DNA of 38,381 nt from Gammaproteobacteria bacterium (GTDB taxonomy: Bacteria; Pseudomonadota; Gammaproteobacteria; Nitrosococcales; Methylophagaceae), in NCBI GenBank assembly GCA_029210875.1, contig JARGFJ010000024.1:1-38381 (forward strand). Reading direction: 5' to 3'. Under the pieces are notes generated by a model. The model made no database searches. It saw only the letters and a list, made by a program, of their open reading frames with translations, and was not told the DNA's origin. Shown here in pieces: positions 8,192-37,869 of this stretch (the first letter of the stretch is position 1; each line of letters opens with the position of its first letter). The position numbers and the translations under genes were made by a program.

Positions 8192-11100
8192 ATGTTGTTA
8201 AGAAAGAAACTGTCTCTAATTGCTATTTTGGGTGGCTTATTGATTACGCTTCCGGCCTTGTTTGCACTTTATTATCTTGCCCGTGACAGTTATCTAGAAC
8301 AAACGCTGGCTCAACTCGCTAAAACTACACACGCCAATGCCTCTATTCCCATCGATCATATTCGGCAAGCTGAAACCAGCCTAATCAGCTTGGCTGATGA
8401 ACTGAAACTGAGCCTGTCACAACCACCGTTAGCAAGTGAAATAGATGAGTTTGATAAACTCGTCTCTACTGATGAGCATGGTGTTACTCGCAATAATCCG
8501 AAGCTATTTGACGGTCAGCGTCAAGCAGGTGTTTTTATCCCTGCCGATGTCACTCTTACTGATGACGTTAAACGAACCAAATTGCGCGCAATGAAATTAC
8601 TCAGCCATTACGGTCAGGCGGCTCTGCATTTTTTTGATGGTATTTGGTTTGATCAAGCTAATAAAACATCGGTTATTTTCTGGCGACGCGATGCTGATTT
8701 TATTTATCAATTAGCGCCAGATCATGATTACACCCAAACCTTGTGGAATACTCTGGCATCACCTGAACTCAATCCTGAGCGAACACCAAAATGGACACCT
8801 GCCATTCAAGAATCACCCGTTGGCACATGGGTTGTAAGCTGTGTTTACCCTTTAGATATCGATGACAAGTGGCTTGGGGTATTAGGCCATGACATTGCTC
8901 TGACAGAACTCATTACTAGTTTCACTCAACAAGATGCTTACCAACATAGTCAACATTTTTTACTTGATGCGTATGGTAGTTTTGTTTTAGCGGGTCCCTG
9001 GCAACAACAACTGGAACAAGCATCAGGTGAATTTAAACCTGATCTTAGCCAAGAACCCGAGCTACAGGCTCTTTTCAATGGTGATTTGACTCTCGATGGA
9101 AATCATTATCACGTCAGCTTACACAATCAGAACTATGTCGCGTTCTCATTAGCTCTGCCCGGACTAGACTGGCGTTATTATCGTTTAGTTTTGATCGATG
9201 AACTACTCGCACCGATGCATCAACTGTTTATCGATATCGCTGTGTTATTAATCCTAATCGCCCTGCTCTCAACCATTTTAATGAATCAGGCCGTATGTCG
9301 ATTATTTATACATCCCTTAACTCAGTTTGCAAAGACGGCCTACAACTATGGTCATGGTCAATCTGATAGTCGTATTAACTACCCCAAGCACGATGAATTG
9401 GGTAATGTTGCCTCGACCTTTAACCAAATGGCTGACAATATTCAACGACAGCAACAAACACTTCAAAAAAGTCAGGCCGAATACAGTCATGTCATCAATA
9501 CCATCAATGAGGCCATTTTCAAGCTCGATAATAGCGGACGTGTACAATTCGTCAACGCAGCTTGGCAACAACTGACAGGCTATTTACCTTCATCATCAAT
9601 CAGTCATTTTTTTACTGATTTTATTCATCCAGAATCACTGATTGATGTTGAAACAGCGATTGAAGCTACGCTAGATGACCCCTCTTTCTTATTCCATGGA
9701 GAAATAAAACTACTCAATACACATCAACAATCGATCTGGGTCGAACTTGAAATGCAAGCCTCAATCGACACCTTTCCACACGCAGGTGAACAGCTCGTTA
9801 TTACCGGCCACATGGATGACATTACCACCCGAAAATATACACACTTGATCGATAGTTTGATTAGTAATCTTGAACGTCAAGCTATGCAAGGTCGTCACCT
9901 GGAACAGGTACTTGGTATTTTCTGCATAGAGCTATCACATGCACTATCATTACCGTTAGTCTGGGTTGTTCGCCCGACTGAACACACCCATCGCGTTATT
10001 GCTGCTGCAGGTGATATGGTTGGTCAGGTCAACACGCTTAATCATTTGCTTCTCAGTGATTCAAAGCAATGGCAGCAATTTTCAACGTCAACACAACCAC
10101 AGACATTAACCACTGATTTAACCGTTAATGGTATTGGCGATAGCTTGGTAATACCACTTTGCTTACCTAATGATAATAGCAATGCGATCGTTCTTTTTCA
10201 CACCGAACTTACACAACATTTTTCTGAGCATGATACTGAGCGCCTAAGCAAATTAACCGCCAGGATTGCCATCATCATCCAACTGGCTGAAGATCAAAAA
10301 TGGATGTTGTTACATCGCACAGCAGTCGAAACAACGGCTAATGCTATTTTGATTACCGATAACCACGCCAATATTGAATGGTGTAATGATGCTTTTACCC
10401 GTTTAACCGGCTATTCATTGGAGTCTATTCAAGGTAAAAACCCACGTATTTTGAACTCAGGCAAACAAGACGCGTCATTTTATCAAGAAATGTGGCACTG
10501 CTTATCAAATAAAAAGATATGGCGTGGTGAACTCATTAACCAACGAAAAAATGGCAGTCTTTATTCGGTAGTTCAGACCATCACACCATTAATCGATGAT
10601 CGCGGTAAAATTACCCACTTTGTCGCCGTTCAAGAAGATATCAGTGAACTTAAAGCCGCTGAACAGCGTATGCAATATTTAGCAACGCATGACTTCTTAA
10701 CCGATTTACCTAATCGATTTATGCTTAAACAAAGACTCGATCACGCCATTGAAACAGGGCATCGCCAGCAGCAGCAACATGCTGTTTTGTTTATGGATTT
10801 GGATGGTTTTAAAAGTATCAATGACTCGCTTGGTCACCAGACCGGTGACATGATTTTACAACAGCTCGCACAACGCCTGAGTTCATTGCTTCGTCAAGCT
10901 GATACCCTGGCTCGTATTGGTGGCGATGAATTTGTGCTCTTGCTGGAAAACATTCCAAATGTGGAGACAATCAATAACATCGCGATAAAAGTACTCGAAA
11001 ATTTCAAGCACAAATTTGATGTTCAGGGTAATCAACTCAAACTCACCACAAGTATTGGCATTAGCCTGTATCCACAAGATGGTACAACATCAGAACAACT

Positions 11101-11962
11101 ACTCAGTCACGCAGATGCCGCAATGTATCATGCCAAAGAACAAGGTCGAAATAATATCCAGTTTTTCACCCAATCGATAAATGACACCATCCAGGCACGA
11201 CTGACCCTGGAACAGGATCTGCAAACAGCACTGCACGATAATCAGTTTGAACTGCATTACCAACCTCAAATAGATTTAGAAAAACAGACTGTGCTAGGGG
11301 CTGAAGCCTTACTTCGATGGCACCATCCCAAACGTGGCATGATTTCACCTCTGACCTTTATTCCATTTGCGGAAGATACCGGACAAATCATTGACATCGG
11401 CAATTGGGTACTTAAAACAGCATGTCAACAAGCGAAGCAATGGCATCAGCAAGGTTATGGACAACTTAATGTCTCGATCAATGTCTCTGTTCGTCAGTTA
11501 TTGCATTCGGAATTCATTAGTTCTGTGCAAACTATCTTGACTGAAACGATGGTTAACCCACAACTAATCACTATCGAGCTCACTGAAAGTATTATGGTAA
11601 CCCAACCAGAACATGCAATAGAACTACTCAATCAGCTCAAAGCGCTAGGCTTGAAGCTGTCGATTGATGATTTTGGTACCGGCTATTCCAGCTTGCAATA
11701 TCTCAAATTATTACCTCTTGATGAACTTAAAATTGATCAAAGTTTTATCCGAGATATTATGCATACAGATGGTTATGCTATCGTCAAAAGTATCTGTGCG
11801 CTGGGGCATTCTATGGGATTATCACTGCTGGCTGAGGGGGTTGAACAGGTGTCGACGCCAGCCGTTTTACAGAAAGTAGGCTGTCACCGCTGTCAGGGCT
11901 ATTTATTTAGTAAGTCGCTATCAGTTCAGGATGCAAATGATTATTTTGCTTCGCATTATTAG
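8192..11962 (+). CDS. Membrane c-di-GMP cyclase/phosphodiesterase (sensor-HAMP-PAS-GAF-PAS-GGDEF-EAL)
   Basis: A 1256-residue inner-membrane signalling enzyme. An N-terminal helix (about 8-30) and a second near 340-365 flank a large periplasmic Cache-like sensor. A HAMP segment follows (PLTQFAKTAYNYGHGQSDSR on), then PAS (about 430-545), GAF (about 560-700) and PAS (about 705-830). The GGDEF domain has intact GGDEF at 910-914 and an inhibitory RxxD (RQAD, 900-903) five residues before it. The EAL domain has EAL at 1038-1040 plus NVSVRQL, IELTES, IDDFGTGYSS, LKID, LLAEGVE and QGYLF, so every usual catalytic position looks present. Both making and breaking c-di-GMP are thus possible. Downstream lies a strong hairpin. 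The porin gene 18 bases upstream suggests joint expression. Confidence 0.93.
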   Translation: MLLRKKLSLIAILGGLLITLPALFALYYLARDSYLEQTLAQLAKTTHANASIPIDHIRQAETSLISLADELKLSLSQPPLASEIDEFDKLVSTDEHGVTRNNPKLFDGQRQAGVFIPADVTLTDDVKRTKLRAMKLLSHYGQAALHFFDGIWFDQANKTSVIFWRRDADFIYQLAPDHDYTQTLWNTLASPELNPERTPKWTPAIQESPVGTWVVSCVYPLDIDDKWLGVLGHDIALTELITSFTQQDAYQHSQHFLLDAYGSFVLAGPWQQQLEQASGEFKPDLSQEPELQALFNGDLTLDGNHYHVSLHNQNYVAFSLALPGLDWRYYRLVLIDELLAPMHQLFIDIAVLLILIALLSTILMNQAVCRLFIHPLTQFAKTAYNYGHGQSDSRINYPKHDELGNVASTFNQMADNIQRQQQTLQKSQAEYSHVINTINEAIFKLDNSGRVQFVNAAWQQLTGYLPSSSISHFFTDFIHPESLIDVETAIEATLDDPSFLFHGEIKLLNTHQQSIWVELEMQASIDTFPHAGEQLVITGHMDDITTRKYTHLIDSLISNLERQAMQGRHLEQVLGIFCIELSHALSLPLVWVVRPTEHTHRVIAAAGDMVGQVNTLNHLLLSDSKQWQQFSTSTQPQTLTTDLTVNGIGDSLVIPLCLPNDNSNAIVLFHTELTQHFSEHDTERLSKLTARIAIIIQLAEDQKWMLLHRTAVETTANAILITDNHANIEWCNDAFTRLTGYSLESIQGKNPRILNSGKQDASFYQEMWHCLSNKKIWRGELINQRKNGSLYSVVQTITPLIDDRGKITHFVAVQEDISELKAAEQRMQYLATHDFLTDLPNRFMLKQRLDHAIETGHRQQQQHAVLFMDLDGFKSINDSLGHQTGDMILQQLAQRLSSLLRQADTLARIGGDEFVLLLENIPNVETINNIAIKVLENFKHKFDVQGNQLKLTTSIGISLYPQDGTTSEQLLSHADAAMYHAKEQGRNNIQFFTQSINDTIQARLTLEQDLQTALHDNQFELHYQPQIDLEKQTVLGAEALLRWHHPKRGMISPLTFIPFAEDTGQIIDIGNWVLKTACQQAKQWHQQGYGQLNVSINVSVRQLLHSEFISSVQTILTETMVNPQLITIELTESIMVTQPEHAIELLNQLKALGLKLSIDDFGTGYSSLQYLKLLPLDELKIDQSFIRDIMHTDGYAIVKSICALGHSMGLSLLAEGVEQVSTPAVLQKVGCHRCQGYLFSKSLSVQDANDYFASHY

Positions 11963-31391: not shown

Positions 31392-32957
31392 ATGAACAAA
31401 GTCCAACGCGCCTTACTTAGCGTTTCAGATAAGACCGGTGTATTAGAACTCGCACAACAACTCACTCGCCTTGGCGTTGAATTGCTATCAACGGGTGGTA
31501 CGGCAAAGTTACTACAAGAAGCAGGTTTGCCGGTAAAAGAAGTATCTGAACATACTGGCTTCCCAGAAATGATGGATGGCCGTATTAAAACGTTACACCC
31601 TAAAATTCATGGTGGTTTATTAGGTCGACGCGGTACTGATGAAGCCATTATGGCGGAGCACGATATTGCTCCGATTGATTTAGTTGTTGTTAACTTATAT
31701 CCGTTTGAAGCAACTATTGCGCGTGATGATTGCACCTTGGCAATGGCGATTGAAAATATTGATATCGGTGGTCCAACCATGTTACGTGCTGCCGCTAAAA
31801 ATCATGCCTCAGTGACGGTATTAATTGATCCTGCTGATTACACACGGGTTATTGATCAAATCGAAGCAAATGGCGGTGTTGATGATGCAACGCGTTTTGA
31901 TCTGGCCATTAAAACATTCGAGCACACTGCCCATTATGATGGTGCAATCTCTAACTATTTTGGTACGTTAACTGCGGGTGAGGACAAAGTAAATTTCCCT
32001 CGCACCTTCAATACCCAATTCCATAAAGCACAAGAAATGCGTTATGGTGAGAACCCTCACCAAAAGGCCGCTTTTTATACTGAAAAGACACCAGAAACAG
32101 GCACGATTGGTGCGGCGGTTCAACTGCAAGGTAAAGCCTTGTCTTACAACAATATTGCCGATACCGATGCCGCATTGGAATGTGTTAAAGCTTTCCCTGA
32201 ATCACCGGCATGTGTGATTGTTAAACATGCCAACCCATGTGGTGTCGCGATAGCAGATGATCTATTAACTGCCTATGATTTAGCTTACCAAACTGATACA
32301 ACTTCTGCATTTGGCGGCATTATTGCGTTTAATCGAGAATTAGATGCTGAAACGGCACAAGCCATTATTGATCGCCAGTTTGTTGAAGTTATTATTGCCC
32401 CTGCAATCAGTGAACAAGCCATAGAAGTCGTCAGCACTAAAAAGAATGTTCGCCTACTTTGTTGTGCTGCATTCCCTGAACAACAAGCTGAAGGATTAGA
32501 CTATAAACGCGTGACTGGCGGTTTATTGGTACAAGACCGTGACACAGCATTAGTGACCGCAGACGAATTAAAAGTTGTAACCAAAAAGGCACCAACAGCA
32601 CAACAAATGTCTGATCTTTTATTTGCATGGCGTGTTGCTAAGTTTGTTAAATCCAATGCGATTGTCTATGTTAGAAATCAACAAACAGTGGGAATTGGTG
32701 CAGGTCAAATGAGTCGTGTAGTCAGTAGCCGTATTGCCGGTATCAAAGCCAATGATGCAGGCTTAACCGTTCCAGGAGCAGTTATGGCTTCTGATGCCTT
32801 CTTCCCGTTCCGTGATGGTTTGGATGCTGCGGCCGAAGCGGGAATTAGCGCTGTTATTCAACCAGGTGGTTCAATGCGTGATGATGAGGTGATTGCGGCA
32901 GCCGATGAACATGGTATCGCAATGGTATTCACAGGCATGCGTCATTTTAGACACTAA
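31392..32957 (+). CDS. purH: Bifunctional AICAR transformylase / IMP cyclohydrolase
   Basis: Catalyses the last two steps of IMP synthesis. The 521 residues have the N-terminal cyclohydrolase domain (about 1-195: [47 protein letters not shown]) and the C-terminal transformylase domain, whose catalytic Lys-His appears as [13 protein letters not shown] and whose other signatures are [21 protein letters not shown] and [18 protein letters not shown] lies seven bases before the ATG. The next gene, the cyclase-like one, begins 22 bases after its stop, so co-transcription is likely. Confidence 0.98.
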
Positions 32958-32979: not shown

Positions 32980-35613
32980 ATGGATCTAATCGAAGTTACA
33001 AAATTATTTAATGCTCACAATCGCTCCAGGATTGAGCGATTGCTTGAGTTAGCACCGCCAGCACATCAGACTTTTTTACAATTTTTACCGTTAATTTTTC
33101 AGTCTAATGATTCAGCTTTGCCATGTTATGTTGAAGGTGCACCATTTGGCATCGTTGACTATCAGCCAAGTAATAAGCTATTAGCCCTCGCCAAGAAAAA
33201 CCATCCCACTCTTTCTTATTCAAAACATGCTTTTAGGCACTATCCGATTCAAGGTCTATACCTGATAAACGATGTTGGTGCCTTGTATTATCCAGATGAT
33301 CCTCAGTTTGATTTATGGCTAATCTATTCTTCGGACAATACCGAGCAGCAGATCCAGTTACTCAAAACCAAATTACACGATAGTATTAGCCTGGCAAAAT
33401 CGTTGGGAATAAAACTGAATGCTCGATTGCTCAATGATACTGCTATCAAAGAATATAAAATTGAATCCGATGATTTAGACAGGTTTTACAGTAGCGGACT
33501 TATTCTGGCCGGCAGTATTCCTTTATGGTGGTTGCTTACACCCGAACAAGAGCTAGACTATCAAACCCATGCGAGACAGTTCATTTCTGCTCCTCCCGTC
33601 GATGCCGCTATTCTTGACTTTGGTCCTTTAGAAAAGCACTCGGCATCCGTGCTTGTTGATACGGCTATTAAAGCAAGTTTAGCTGCCTTGAATTATGGAC
33701 TGCCTTGCTTTCTGGAGTTATTTTTTCAGCAAACCTTACTCGACCATCTATCCGACAATTTATGGCTGTCGCCTCGTTATAAACAAGCTATATATAGCAA
33801 AGAGACCAATACCTTTTTCTGTGAACCTCTTATATTGAAATATGAGCTCGTCTCAGAAAAGATCTCATCTGAATTTATCCCTTATCTCCAGCGTTCACTC
33901 TATTTATTGGCTAACGAACGCTTATCGTCCAAAGTGACATCGCCTCGCTTTCCCTGGCGGCGAGACAATATGGCCGATCTTGTTAATCAATGGCAATGGA
34001 ATAAGCAGGAACTTGCCGAATTAGATCAGCGCAATCAGGCACAAATCCGTCAACGTTTAGATGAATTTAAGCTGACCAAAACACTCACACAACAATTCAA
34101 CAGCACACTTAGTGGGGTAATAAAAAGTTCAGCTCCAGATGCGTCAAAAAAGTTTGTATTACTACAAAAAGCATTTCAAGATCTGTTCGATAGTCCTCCT
34201 GATGTTATCCCATGTTTACCTGAGTCGCTGATACCTGACGTTTCTGAAGATATACTATTTATTGAATTTGACCCGGCATCCAGACAGTGGCGTATCAATG
34301 AAATTGAGCGAACAACGCTAAAAAAAGATCAACGCTTTTCTCCGTTATATAGTAGCGCTTCGTTATTACTTACGGTCGCATGGGCCATAATTAATGGTGC
34401 GCTTTCCAAATATACCCGTGTTAAATTACTTTCAACTAATAGTGATGTGTCGACAACGACCCTTTATAGTTTGATTGAGCAGTTAGTCAAATCGCCTTTG
34501 GTAACGATGCAGTCATCAGATGAACATTTAATTTGGCTACTATTTGCTAATACAGAGATCACCCCTAAACAAGCCTATAAACAGCAAGATATAAAACTCG
34601 CTCTCCGTCTTCGCGATCCGCTAAATTATGGTTACCATCGTCGAAATATGGTCTTGTGTTTAGAGGTAATAACGCGTTCAAAAGATAATATATGGCACTA
34701 CTTGCATAATGATAGTGTCAATGCAGTGGGAGAAACCCTTGCCAATTTTGTTCGTTGGCACTCACCTACTTCACAACAAAATTATGTAGAGTGTTGGTGT
34801 CCGACACCGTCTTTTGCCAGCAATATTAGTAAAAGAATAACGACGCTGTGCCAGCATCTATCTGAGCACGTTCAACATGCACCAGAAAATGGCATCTACA
34901 TTCTTGAAGTAGGTGACCAATTATGCCGAATCCAATGGCAACAGCAACATGTCGATGCCACGCTTTATGCCCATCGTTATGATCTCGACACCATCTTATC
35001 TCTGACTAGAAATGAATTTTATGCCACCCATGTTGATCAGAATTTGGATCATGAAGGCCTTTATCAATTGTTACTAAAGGACCAAAACCGACAGCAAATA
35101 CGTGTGTTTATAGATAGCCAAAAATCACATATCGATGTTTATATTCTCGATGAACTTGGGCACCTCGATAAGCAACAATTTTCGTCACTAAAAGAAACTA
35201 CTTTGCTGACTAATTTGAATCAATTCCTATCTGCTGTAGCTGCCACCCACCATCTGAGTAAACCGCATTTTTATAAATTACATAACATCTACGGTGCGTG
35301 GTCGTTGAAAGCATTACCTCTTCCGTCACCTGATATCACAGACAGTTATCTTCCGGTTCAAGTTAAAATGGAACAGGTCAAAACTGACTCGCCATGCACA
35401 ATAAAATGTGGACCCAAACAGTTTAGTGGCAAAGCCAACGACGCAGCATTATTTGATCAAGTATCGCAATTTATGCTCAGTTTACGTCAATCATCCAGTT
35501 CTTTCTCTCTCTACATTACCGAACTTACATTTGAGCAAATCACACCAATAACAACTACTCACGATCATCTTATTTTCAAACAGCACCTCGAAAACTTACT
35601 TAACAAGCGTTAA
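32980..35613 (+). CDS. Class I adenylate cyclase (CyaA)-like protein, catalytic motif lost
   Basis: An 877-residue protein collinear with E. coli CyaA (848) as I recall that sequence: LPCYVEGAPFGI (47-58), LDRFYSSGLILAG (166-178) and WRRDNMADLVNQWQW in the N-terminal half, and VAWAIINGALSKYTRV in the C-terminal half. In the nucleotidyltransferase motif the Gly-Ser pair is replaced by Asn97-Asp98, and D-L-D-I-W reads QFDLW (109-113), so the first metal-binding Asp is Gln. The positions of E. coli Arg188 and Lys196 are Ser171 and Ser179, and the Gly-rich loop before them is missing. The frame is intact, so this is not a decaying gene. I infer a non-catalytic or altered cyclase, role unknown. 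It lies 22 bases after purH and 67 before argC. Confidence 0.8.
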   Translation: MDLIEVTKLFNAHNRSRIERLLELAPPAHQTFLQFLPLIFQSNDSALPCYVEGAPFGIVDYQPSNKLLALAKKNHPTLSYSKHAFRHYPIQGLYLINDVGALYYPDDPQFDLWLIYSSDNTEQQIQLLKTKLHDSISLAKSLGIKLNARLLNDTAIKEYKIESDDLDRFYSSGLILAGSIPLWWLLTPEQELDYQTHARQFISAPPVDAAILDFGPLEKHSASVLVDTAIKASLAALNYGLPCFLELFFQQTLLDHLSDNLWLSPRYKQAIYSKETNTFFCEPLILKYELVSEKISSEFIPYLQRSLYLLANERLSSKVTSPRFPWRRDNMADLVNQWQWNKQELAELDQRNQAQIRQRLDEFKLTKTLTQQFNSTLSGVIKSSAPDASKKFVLLQKAFQDLFDSPPDVIPCLPESLIPDVSEDILFIEFDPASRQWRINEIERTTLKKDQRFSPLYSSASLLLTVAWAIINGALSKYTRVKLLSTNSDVSTTTLYSLIEQLVKSPLVTMQSSDEHLIWLLFANTEITPKQAYKQQDIKLALRLRDPLNYGYHRRNMVLCLEVITRSKDNIWHYLHNDSVNAVGETLANFVRWHSPTSQQNYVECWCPTPSFASNISKRITTLCQHLSEHVQHAPENGIYILEVGDQLCRIQWQQQHVDATLYAHRYDLDTILSLTRNEFYATHVDQNLDHEGLYQLLLKDQNRQQIRVFIDSQKSHIDVYILDELGHLDKQQFSSLKETTLLTNLNQFLSAVAATHHLSKPHFYKLHNIYGAWSLKALPLPSPDITDSYLPVQVKMEQVKTDSPCTIKCGPKQFSGKANDAALFDQVSQFMLSLRQSSSSFSLYITELTFEQITPITTTHDHLIFKQHLENLLNKR

Positions 35614-35680: not shown

Positions 35681-36709
35681 ATGATTAATGTTGGCATTGT
35701 AGGCGCTACAGGCTATACCGGAGTAGAGTTATTACGTCTGCTTGCAACGCATCCTGAAGTGACATTAACCGTGATTACATCTCGTGCCGAAGCGGGTATG
35801 CCTGTTTGCGAAATGTTTCCCAATTTACGTGGTTTTGTCGATCTCTGCTTTAGTGAGCCCGATGTAGACCAGCTCGCAGGTTGTGACGTGGTATTTTTTG
35901 CGACACCACACTGTGTTGCGATGGCGATGGTACCTGAATTGATCAAGCGTGGAACCCGTGTCATTGATTTATCAGCGGACTTTAGACTTAAAAATGTCGC
36001 ACAATGGGAACAGTGGTACAACATGCCTCATAGCTGTCCTGAGCTACTCGATCTTGCCGTCTATGGCTTGCCTGAAGTCAATCGTGAACAGATCAAATCT
36101 GCACAATTAATTGCTGTTGCTGGTTGCTACCCGACTGCAACCCAACTCGGCTTTTTACCGTTATTAGAAAATGATGTGGTTGACCCATTACACCTGATCG
36201 CTGATGCTAAATCGGGGGTTAGCGGTGCGGGTAGAAAAGCCGCTGTTGCTAGCTTATTGTCTGAATCCTCAGAAAATATGAAGGCCTATGGGGTTGCCGG
36301 TCATCGCCACTTACCCGAAATAATGCAAGGTTTATCTCGTGCTTACGGCAAGGCTGTAAACTTAACGTTTGTACCACATCTAACGCCAATGATCCGGGGT
36401 ATCCATGCAACCTTATATGGCAGACTGACTAAAGACTGTGATCTGCAAGCATTATATGAACAGCGTTATGCCGATGAACCGTTTGTTGATGTGATGCCTA
36501 TTGGCTCTCACCCTGAAACTCGTAGTGTTCGTGGCATCAATACCTGCCGGATAGCCATTCATCAACCCCAAAATAGTGATACGGTGGTGGTGTTATCAGT
36601 GATTGATAATTTAGTGAAAGGTGCATCAGGCCAAGCGGTTCAGAATATGAACATCATGTTTGGTTTCGATGAAACATTAGCCATCAACACTATTGCAGCG
36701 CTGCCATAA
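35681..36709 (+). CDS. argC: N-acetyl-gamma-glutamyl-phosphate reductase
   Basis: NADPH-dependent reduction of N-acetylglutamyl phosphate in arginine synthesis. The 342 residues have the N-terminal nucleotide-binding [14 protein letters not shown] (8-21) and the catalytic Cys149 in [11 protein letters not shown], then [11 protein letters not shown], the substrate-binding HRHLPEI and the [10 protein letters not shown] and VDNLVKG-like ([17 protein letters not shown]) closing motifs. The ribosome site is poor. The coiled-coil protein gene starts directly after its TAA, so translation is coupled. I see no strong promoter in the 67 bases before it. Confidence 0.97.
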
Positions 36710-37399
36710 ATGTCATCACTGGCAAAACACGTTATTTACCAACCCAAACCGTATCGATGTCTGATCATTGTTACGGTTGCAGTCTTGCTCACCGCAGTGC
36801 TGATTTGGTTTTATTTAACGCAATCGAATGAGTCGCTGCTTATAGAATTGTCACAACTAAAACAGCAGCAGCAACAGCTATTGAATCAAAATCAACACTT
36901 GCAACAACAGCTTAAATCGGTACAACATCAACTTGAAGATAAAAATCAGTTTATAGCCATCCAAAGCGAAACAGATACACAGTTAAAACGCCGGCTTGAT
37001 GAGCTTCAAAACAAAGTGGTTCATCTCAACAAAGAATTGATGTTTTATCAAACCATTACTCAAGGCAACACCTCCAGTAAATTGCAAATTCGAGAATTGG
37101 AACTCAATGCAATCGCAACTGACAAACCTGAAAATATTAGCTATCGCGTTGTTATCACCCAAGGTGAAAGAATTACTAAACCGCTAACTGGCATAATTAC
37201 TTTAACTTTGAACTATGACACAGACAAACACGACGTAATCAGCGAACATCAGCTTAATTTACGACATGTGCAAGTACTTGAGGGTACATTAAAATTAGCT
37301 GACAATATTGCTCCCAACAGCATCACCATCACGCTAAAACAAAACAAAAAAATCACCCTATCACAATCCTTTGATTGGCAAATTGCTAAACAAAACTAA
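36710..37399 (+). CDS. Membrane-anchored coiled-coil protein (DUF6776-like)
   Basis: A 229-residue protein of unknown function, probably DUF6776 family by position between argC and a bactofilin gene. One membrane helix (CLIIVTVAVLLTAVLIWFYL, about 17-36) is followed by a periplasmic Gln/Leu-rich coiled coil (about 40-115, with LKQQQQQLLNQNQHLQQQL) and a C-terminal domain of beta-strand character (about 120-229). The N-terminus is cytoplasmic with basic residues, so the bulk faces the periplasm. ATG follows the argC TAA without a gap. Link to the bactofilin downstream (15 bases) suggests a role in cell shape or envelope organisation, which is inference. Confidence 0.8.
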   Translation: MSSLAKHVIYQPKPYRCLIIVTVAVLLTAVLIWFYLTQSNESLLIELSQLKQQQQQLLNQNQHLQQQLKSVQHQLEDKNQFIAIQSETDTQLKRRLDELQNKVVHLNKELMFYQTITQGNTSSKLQIRELELNAIATDKPENISYRVVITQGERITKPLTGIITLTLNYDTDKHDVISEHQLNLRHVQVLEGTLKLADNIAPNSITITLKQNKKITLSQSFDWQIAKQN

Positions 37400-37413: not shown

Positions 37414-37869
37414 ATGTTTAACAAAGGAAAAAGCAAAAACAGATCTAAATCCGTTCGAATTGATACTTTAATTGGACAATATACTCACATTAAAGGCGAT
37501 ATCAGCTTTAGCGGTGGCTTGCGTGTCGATGGTAATATTGTTGGCAATGTTAATGCCATGGGAGATAACGAATCGGTACTGACTTTAAGTGATTTAGGTT
37601 CTATTGAAGGCGAAATAAGAGTGCCGAACCTAGTCATCAATGGCACTATTATTGGTAACGTATATGCTACCGAACATGTAGAACTGGCTCCAAAGGCCAA
37701 AGTTCAAGGTAATGTCTATTACAGAATGTTGGAAATGGTGATAGGAGCAGAAGTAAACGGACAATTGATCCGTATCAGTAGTGATAATGAAAATATGCTC
37801 GATCTCGCTCACGAACGTGTCGAAGACAGCGAAACCTTTCAGTTAGAACAAAAGTCTAATCTTGACTAA
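37414..37869 (+). CDS. Bactofilin
   Basis: Cytoskeletal protein that polymerises into filaments on the inner membrane without nucleotide, helping to place cell-wall or stalk enzymes. The 151 residues have a basic N-terminal tail (FNKGKSKNRSKSVRIDTLIG), then repeated six-residue beta-helix turns (IKGDISFSGGLRVDGNIVGN, GSIEGEIRVPNLVINGTIIG, VELAPKAKVQGNVYYRMLEM) typical of PF04519, and a short acidic tail. AGAGG lies seven bases before the ATG. It follows the coiled-coil protein gene by 14 bases and precedes erpA. Confidence 0.93.
   Translation: MFNKGKSKNRSKSVRIDTLIGQYTHIKGDISFSGGLRVDGNIVGNVNAMGDNESVLTLSDLGSIEGEIRVPNLVINGTIIGNVYATEHVELAPKAKVQGNVYYRMLEMVIGAEVNGQLIRISSDNENMLDLAHERVEDSETFQLEQKSNLD

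Follow-up and report, generated by a model that had tools for sequence, protein, structure and literature searches.

A class I adenylate cyclase homologue between purH and argC

Inspection of the window (the whole 38,381-nt stretch of DNA analysed) showed a cya-like gene lying between purH and argC (Table 1). An earlier note had described its product as a full-length relative of class I adenylate cyclases with an intact 877-codon frame and a preserved C-terminal half. Both features were borne out: the ORF 32980..35613 is uninterrupted over 877 aa, and its product matched PF12633 (Adenyl_cycl_N) over residues 5-184 at 95.4 bits and PF01295 (Adenylate_cycl) over residues 262-780 at 125.3 bits, the cut-off being 27 bits in each case. 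Nine NCBIfam models of class I cyclases also matched, the best of them over residues 4-876 at 325 bits, with all scores far under the equivalog cut-offs (802 to 1866 bits). Since both Pfam cut-offs are exceeded, the protein is, as a sequence family, a class I adenylate cyclase; it belongs to a known family and does not represent a novel type of system. The class I cyclases are the standard source of cAMP in Gammaproteobacteria, and an annotation resting on the Pfam match would label the gene an adenylate cyclase. A search of the window genome (2.44 Mb in 93 contigs, 99.99% complete) for a second, intact CyaA found none, the cya-like gene being its sole PF12633 match. A phmmer search of the PDB with the protein returned no class I cyclase, only two ribosomal-protein matches (E 0.41 and 0.86). 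AlphaFold2 runs on the protein and its 95%-identical relative L032 reached a mean pLDDT of 33, with zero residues above 50, and the model was discarded.

Table 1. Position of the cya-like gene, its parts and its conserved neighbours in the window (residue letters with E. coli numbers refer to CyaA; f1, family of the window genome)
Feature	Position	Strand	Basis or remark
purH, conserved upstream neighbour	31392..32957	+	PF01808, PF02142
cya-like gene; class I adenylate cyclase homologue lacking most of the catalytic residues	32980..35613	+	ATG, 877 aa
Presumed former catalytic domain, Adenyl_cycl_N (residues 5-184)	32992..33531	+	Pfam match
Presumed former nucleotidyltransferase motif (residues 97-113): G102-S103...D114-x-D116-x-W118 in E. 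coli, N97-D98...Q109-F-D111-L-W113 here	33268..33318	+	alignment
Residues 165-180: Gly/Ser loop (E. coli about 175-182) deleted immediately before; R188 to S171, K196 to S179	33472..33519	+	alignment
Residues 241-247: SPYKSVLK-like in canonical enzymes (K260, K264), P242 and E246 here	33700..33720	+	alignment
C-terminal Adenylate_cycl region (residues 262-780), retained	33763..35319	+	Pfam match
E282, at the position of E. coli D300; an acid in 39/39 f1 copies	33823..33825	+	alignment
argC, conserved downstream neighbour	35681..36709	+	PF01118, PF22698

In the family of the window genome (f1), purH lies upstream and argC downstream of the gene in 19 of 19 loci of the same genus (L002-L020, the window and a broken copy, L019, included), and purH is also upstream in all 18 loci examined from the other two f1 genera. 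Two intact enzymes (L140, L141) from f2, a related family of the same order, likewise sit between purH and argC, and relatives of the window's next three genes follow argC there. That an intact f2 enzyme occupies the same purH-cya-argC locus is evidence for vertical inheritance, at this site, from an active enzyme; the cya-like gene would thus stem from an ordinary class I adenylate cyclase. A quick protein tree, made with 22 of the 39 full-length f1 sequences cut to 660 residues, joined f1 with the f121 proteins described below (SH-aLRT 98); the two branches measure 1.49 and 2.01 changes per column, and the grouping is possibly due to long-branch attraction. An f1-plus-f2 clade was not rejected (AU p 0.09), such non-rejection being no proof of the clade. 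In the window, argC is followed by DUF6776 (36710-37399) and bactofilin (37414-37869) genes, and relatives of both follow argC in two f2 loci with intact cyclases.

Loss of catalytic residues throughout the family

The protein and its relatives were aligned with E. coli CyaA from NC_000913.3, which served as the reference for residue numbering; checked against it, the E. coli numbers given in the earlier note were correct. The block around the motif aligned without gaps, as had been claimed, and carried the predicted exchanges, Gly102-Ser103 reading Asn97-Asp98 and Asp114 reading Gln109, with Asp111 and Trp113 remaining at the positions of D116 and W118; S113 is P108. Where active enzymes have GS...DxDxW, the protein has N97-D98...Q109-x-D111-x-W113. 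The further losses described in the note were found as well: Arg188 and Lys196 have become Ser171 and Ser179, the Gly-rich loop has gone in a deletion that takes in E. coli positions 175, 181 and 182, all invariant among canonical enzymes, as well as 178 (32/33), and the KAVLK stretch has no matching lysines, K260 and K264 being replaced by P242 and E246. The acid at the D300 position is kept, as E282. An intact GS...DxD elsewhere in the protein was looked for with the strict pattern GS/GT-x(5-12)-D-x-[DE], which matched E. coli CyaA at residue 102 and had no match anywhere in the cya-like protein.

Residue counts compared 39 full-length f1 copies, that of the window included, with 33 canonical enzymes. 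The former are the 41 aligned rows minus G046, truncated to 739 aa by the end of its contig, and G047 (717 aa); the latter are the 30 highest-scoring loci of a survey of 370 genomes, two f2 copies and E. coli CyaA. As the canonical rows were picked by high score, their invariance is favoured by choice, and it is on this invariance that the importance of the scored residues rests; mutational work on E. coli CyaA reportedly exists. G102, R188, K260 and K264 were each present in 33/33 canonical enzymes and in none of the 39 f1 copies, and G175, a Gly in 33/33 canonical enzymes, was gapped in all 39 by deletion of the Gly/Ser loop. Against 33/33 in each case, S103 was found in two f1 copies, S113 in one, D114 in one and W118 in 33. 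The Gly/Ser loop, Arg188 and KAVLK lysines of active enzymes are therefore deleted or replaced in every f1 copy counted, and the substitutions of the window protein, sought in its relatives, represent a loss common to the family. Chance was rejected as its cause, since none of the 39 copies has retained G102, R188, K260, K264 or the loop. Sequencing or assembly error was also rejected, because the same degenerate state is seen in other genomes.

Some observations are counterpoints to inactivity and would suit a protein that has remained catalytic through the acids at 116 and 300, either in a remodelled active site or on a different substrate. Position 116, Asp in 33/33 canonical enzymes, is Asp in 16 and Asp or Glu in 32 of the 39 f1 copies, and the D300 position is acidic in all of them. 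An acid-x-acid pair at 114/116 occurs in nine copies, with Asp at both positions only in G030, and Glu72, Arg82 and Arg123 of CRP are kept in 48/48 f1 genomes read (see below). However, the nine acid-x-acid copies are, like all 39, also without G102, R188, K260, K264 and G175, and S103 is absent from 37 of the 39. The f1 alignment preserves positions such as G60, K136, Y187, G195, W200 and W201 (E. coli numbers). Within residues 1-200, the columns conserved to at least 95% in f1 include no acid and a single lysine, K131, which is common to canonical enzymes. Continued catalysis appears highly improbable on this evidence, and a changed substrate is the least likely of the alternatives named in the earlier note, the others being a pseudoenzyme and a regulator.

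A PF12633 match was found in 48 of 57 f1 genomes, with a maximum of 124 bits, whereas two f2 genomes (genus g6) have a class I enzyme at 236 and 242 bits with an intact motif. In the class-wide survey, 116 of the 370 genomes had a PF12633 match, 109 of them scoring at least 189 bits and seven no more than 105 bits. The lowest of the 109, G362 (189 bits, L144), has an intact motif; outside the rows aligned, the higher scorers were judged by score. The seven low scorers comprise three f1 genomes, three f121 genomes (83-94 bits) and one sub-cut-off match. This last match (G097, 19.9 bits) was dropped, as the sequence of the stretch looks like that of a small nucleotidyltransferase. Within the class, degeneration is thus uncommon; it was seen in all f1 copies scored and in all three f121 copies examined.

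Maintenance of the gene under purifying selection

The reading frame is open over at least 850 codons in 39 of the 48 f1 copies. Two others (G008, G046) are cut by contig ends, seven look broken or shortened (G003, G005, G012, G018, G020, G036, G047), and a PF12633 match is absent from nine of the 57 f1 genomes, some of these being incomplete. The broken copies and missing matches indicate that the gene is dispensable in some lineages. Among f1 genomes of reduced size, the cyclase-like gene and crp both look broken in G018 (1.7 Mb), and neither gene has a match in G023, G026 and G031 (1.1-1.5 Mb), as if both go in reduced genomes. Other genomes speak against a tight link between the two genes: the cyclase-like gene of G030 is not accompanied by a close CRP, and CRP is present in G001, G021, G024, G033 and G056, where PF12633 has no match.

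Values of dN/dS for the cya-like gene were 0.097-0.195 in 13 f1 pairs, one of them saturated and some having genomes in common; the window/L032 and G000/G011 comparisons are one pair (G011 = L032), and the planned pair G012/G025 was omitted because G012 is not among the full-length rows. Canonical cyclases gave 0.052-0.127 in eight pairs, seven of which cover only 705-739 codons, and the single f121 pair gave 0.108. Between the window and L032, the ratio was 0.195 overall and 0.079 over residues 1-200, compared with 0.044 for purH and 0.083 for argC; among the nine genes compared, the cya-like gene had the highest dN/dS and the lowest dS, which raises the ratio. In other f1 pairs the first 200 residues were not consistently more constrained than the remainder. 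Within the genus, identity to the window protein is 28-39% (95% for G011), vs 84-97% for PurH and 75-95% for ArgC. The gene is evolving faster than its neighbours, yet is under purifying selection.

The broken and missing copies, the low identity within the genus and the 0.195 recorded for window/L032 (inflated as it is by the low dS) would all fit a decaying relic, that is, a functionless gene that still shows constraint because its decay, which followed the loss of cAMP signalling, has been slow or is recent. The degenerate state is, however, common to three genera and so probably old, and most copies have nevertheless stayed open; moreover, their dN/dS values (0.10-0.20) overlap those of canonical cyclases. 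A relic is for these reasons unlikely. The same two observations, 39/48 open copies and a dN/dS of 0.10-0.20, support the earlier note's view that the gene is selected for something other than cAMP synthesis. What was found, an open frame under purifying selection after the loss of catalytic residues, is what characterizes a pseudoenzyme. Catalysis would have been lost in, or before, the f1 ancestor.

CRP and the remaining cAMP pathway

A search for CRP in the window genome and its relatives found it to be kept, but with Ser83 changed. In the window genome this residue is Lys, with Gly71, Glu72, Arg82, Arg123 and Thr127 all kept. In E. coli CRP, the residues that contact cAMP are reported to include Glu72, Arg82 and Ser83 (PMC11253593). 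CRP was read in the 48 of 56 f1 genomes that gave a near-full match; G014, G018, G023, G026, G030, G031, G039 and G042, with no match or a distant or fragmentary one, were left out of the count. Gly71, Glu72, Arg82 and Arg123 are invariant in these 48 CRPs, and Ser83 is kept in seven, the others having Met (18), Thr (7), Gly (5), Lys (4), Ala (3), Gln (2) or Ile (2); the counts come from one family, so that the rows are not phylogenetically independent. Ser83 is kept in 28 of 32 canonical-cyclase genomes and in four of four g6 genomes. The seven f1 CRPs that keep the residue and the four canonical-cyclase genomes without it are counterpoints to any simple link between Ser83 and an active cyclase.

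The CRP of the window genome passed the NCBIfam cut-off for cAMP-activated CRP (277.6 vs 266 bits), which speaks against a wholly changed ligand. Given this score and the four residues invariant in 48/48 genomes, a cyclic nucleotide may still bind f1 CRP. In a comparison with the PDB, the protein scored about equally against 3IWZ (209.5 bits) and catabolite gene activator chains (up to 210.1 bits). The entry 3IWZ, titled catabolite activation-like protein and taken here to be Clp, has Glu at the Ser83 position, where the CRP of the window genome has Lys.

Other components of cAMP metabolism were also looked for. A class III cyclase (PF00211) was not found in the window genome by profile search; matches occurred in two of 56 f1 genomes, in one of them only at the cut-off, and in four of six f2 genomes. 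With the E. coli protein as query, CpdA was not found in the window genome, and 54 f1 genomes yielded only four weak matches (20-33 bits), compared with strong matches (156-186 bits) in four of four g6 genomes. A paper on Methylophaga mentions four ORFs with CRP-type cAMP-binding domains, and no cyclase (PMC11526790).

A CYTH protein, encoded at C6:33924-34511 in the window genome and present in 50 of the 55 f1 genomes searched, might be thought to provide cAMP, with the cya-like protein as the regulatory partner of this or another enzyme, a role compatible with its being a pseudoenzyme. The f121 genomes offer a parallel, in that a degenerate class I protein coexists there with 4-5 PF00211 matches per genome and with CRPs that have Ser83. 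On the other hand, the CYTH protein of the window genome matched no NCBIfam model at E 0.01, in a set in which the presence of the class IV cyclase model is not assured, and its sole PDB match at E 0.1 was the inorganic triphosphatase 5A60. Judged on these results, and on the failure to find PF00211 or CpdA in the window genome, a regulatory partnership with another cAMP-making enzyme appears very unlikely.

A probable cyclase pseudoenzyme and its likeness to known systems

The loss of residues and loop in 39 copies, the single PF12633 match in the genome and the altered cAMP pathway together support the claim of the earlier note that catalysis has apparently been lost. Read from sequence, the cya-like gene probably encodes a vertically inherited cyclase pseudoenzyme, deprived of catalysis and maintained for a non-catalytic role in a lineage that has retained CRP while apparently giving up cAMP. 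The f1 cells would then make no cAMP, and their CRP would be ligand-independent or would use another ligand, as Clp and DdrI do. The remaining fold of the cya-like protein may act as a partner in binding or scaffolding, the likeliest setting being the regulatory circuit once fed by the enzyme; such a role is our best guess, and no interaction partner was found. It is conceivable, though doubtful, that the two-domain fold has become a ligand- or protein-binding regulator controlling the retained CRP, in which case a direct protein switch would have replaced the second messenger while using the same two genes.

With respect to CyaA, the protein is homologous over both Pfam domains (PF12633/PF01295) and lies at the same locus as the intact f2 enzyme, and differs in the residues and loop missing from all 39 copies. 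The closest parallel is provided by the degenerate class I proteins of f121 (L137-L139, from G360, G425 and G181), which have open frames of 902-928 aa and both Pfam domains. Like the cya-like protein, they are without the GS...DxD motif and are constrained in the one pair tested. Unlike it, they have a GS region six residues shorter and keep LAGKYPVWW; their genomes, unlike that of the window, have 4-5 profile matches each to PF00211, and their CRPs have Ser83 in three of three cases. The window's neighbour genes were not found within a few kb beside the f121 loci. The f121 pattern implies that class I catalysis may be lost without cAMP being lost as well; in f1, unlike f121, the other evidence points to cAMP loss. 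If this is true, cAMP signalling should not be assumed in the f1 family, and the lineage would be a natural experiment on what becomes of a cyclase and CRP once the messenger is lost, with f121, whose lesions differ and which has matches to class III cyclases, as a contrast group. A degenerate class I cyclase was the subject of no paper found in the open-access literature searched, most subscription journals lying outside this scope.

For CRP, the likeness is to two factors of its family that need no cAMP for DNA binding, Clp of Xanthomonas and DdrI of Deinococcus; the CRP of the window genome is likewise without Ser83. DdrI is described as cAMP-independent and has Ala at the Ser83 position (PMC11253593), and Clp binds DNA without ligand, is released from DNA by c-di-GMP, and keeps Gly71, Glu72, Arg82 and Arg123, as does the CRP of the window genome (PMC12937710). 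A point of difference is that the CRP of the window genome passes the model for cAMP-activated CRP. The literature search found no report of a retained degenerate cyclase in the organisms of Clp or DdrI.

Elsewhere in the window, a 1256-aa PAS-GGDEF-EAL protein is encoded at 8192-11962, with intact-looking GGDEF and EAL motifs. This makes c-di-GMP signalling plausible, and turnover of the nucleotide likely, in this organism; no link to CRP was seen here. The segment 13601-24774 carries phosphate-uptake-like genes (for a PhoR-type kinase, a PBP-like protein, a transport permease and a PHO4-family transporter). A RecQ helicase gene lies within this group.
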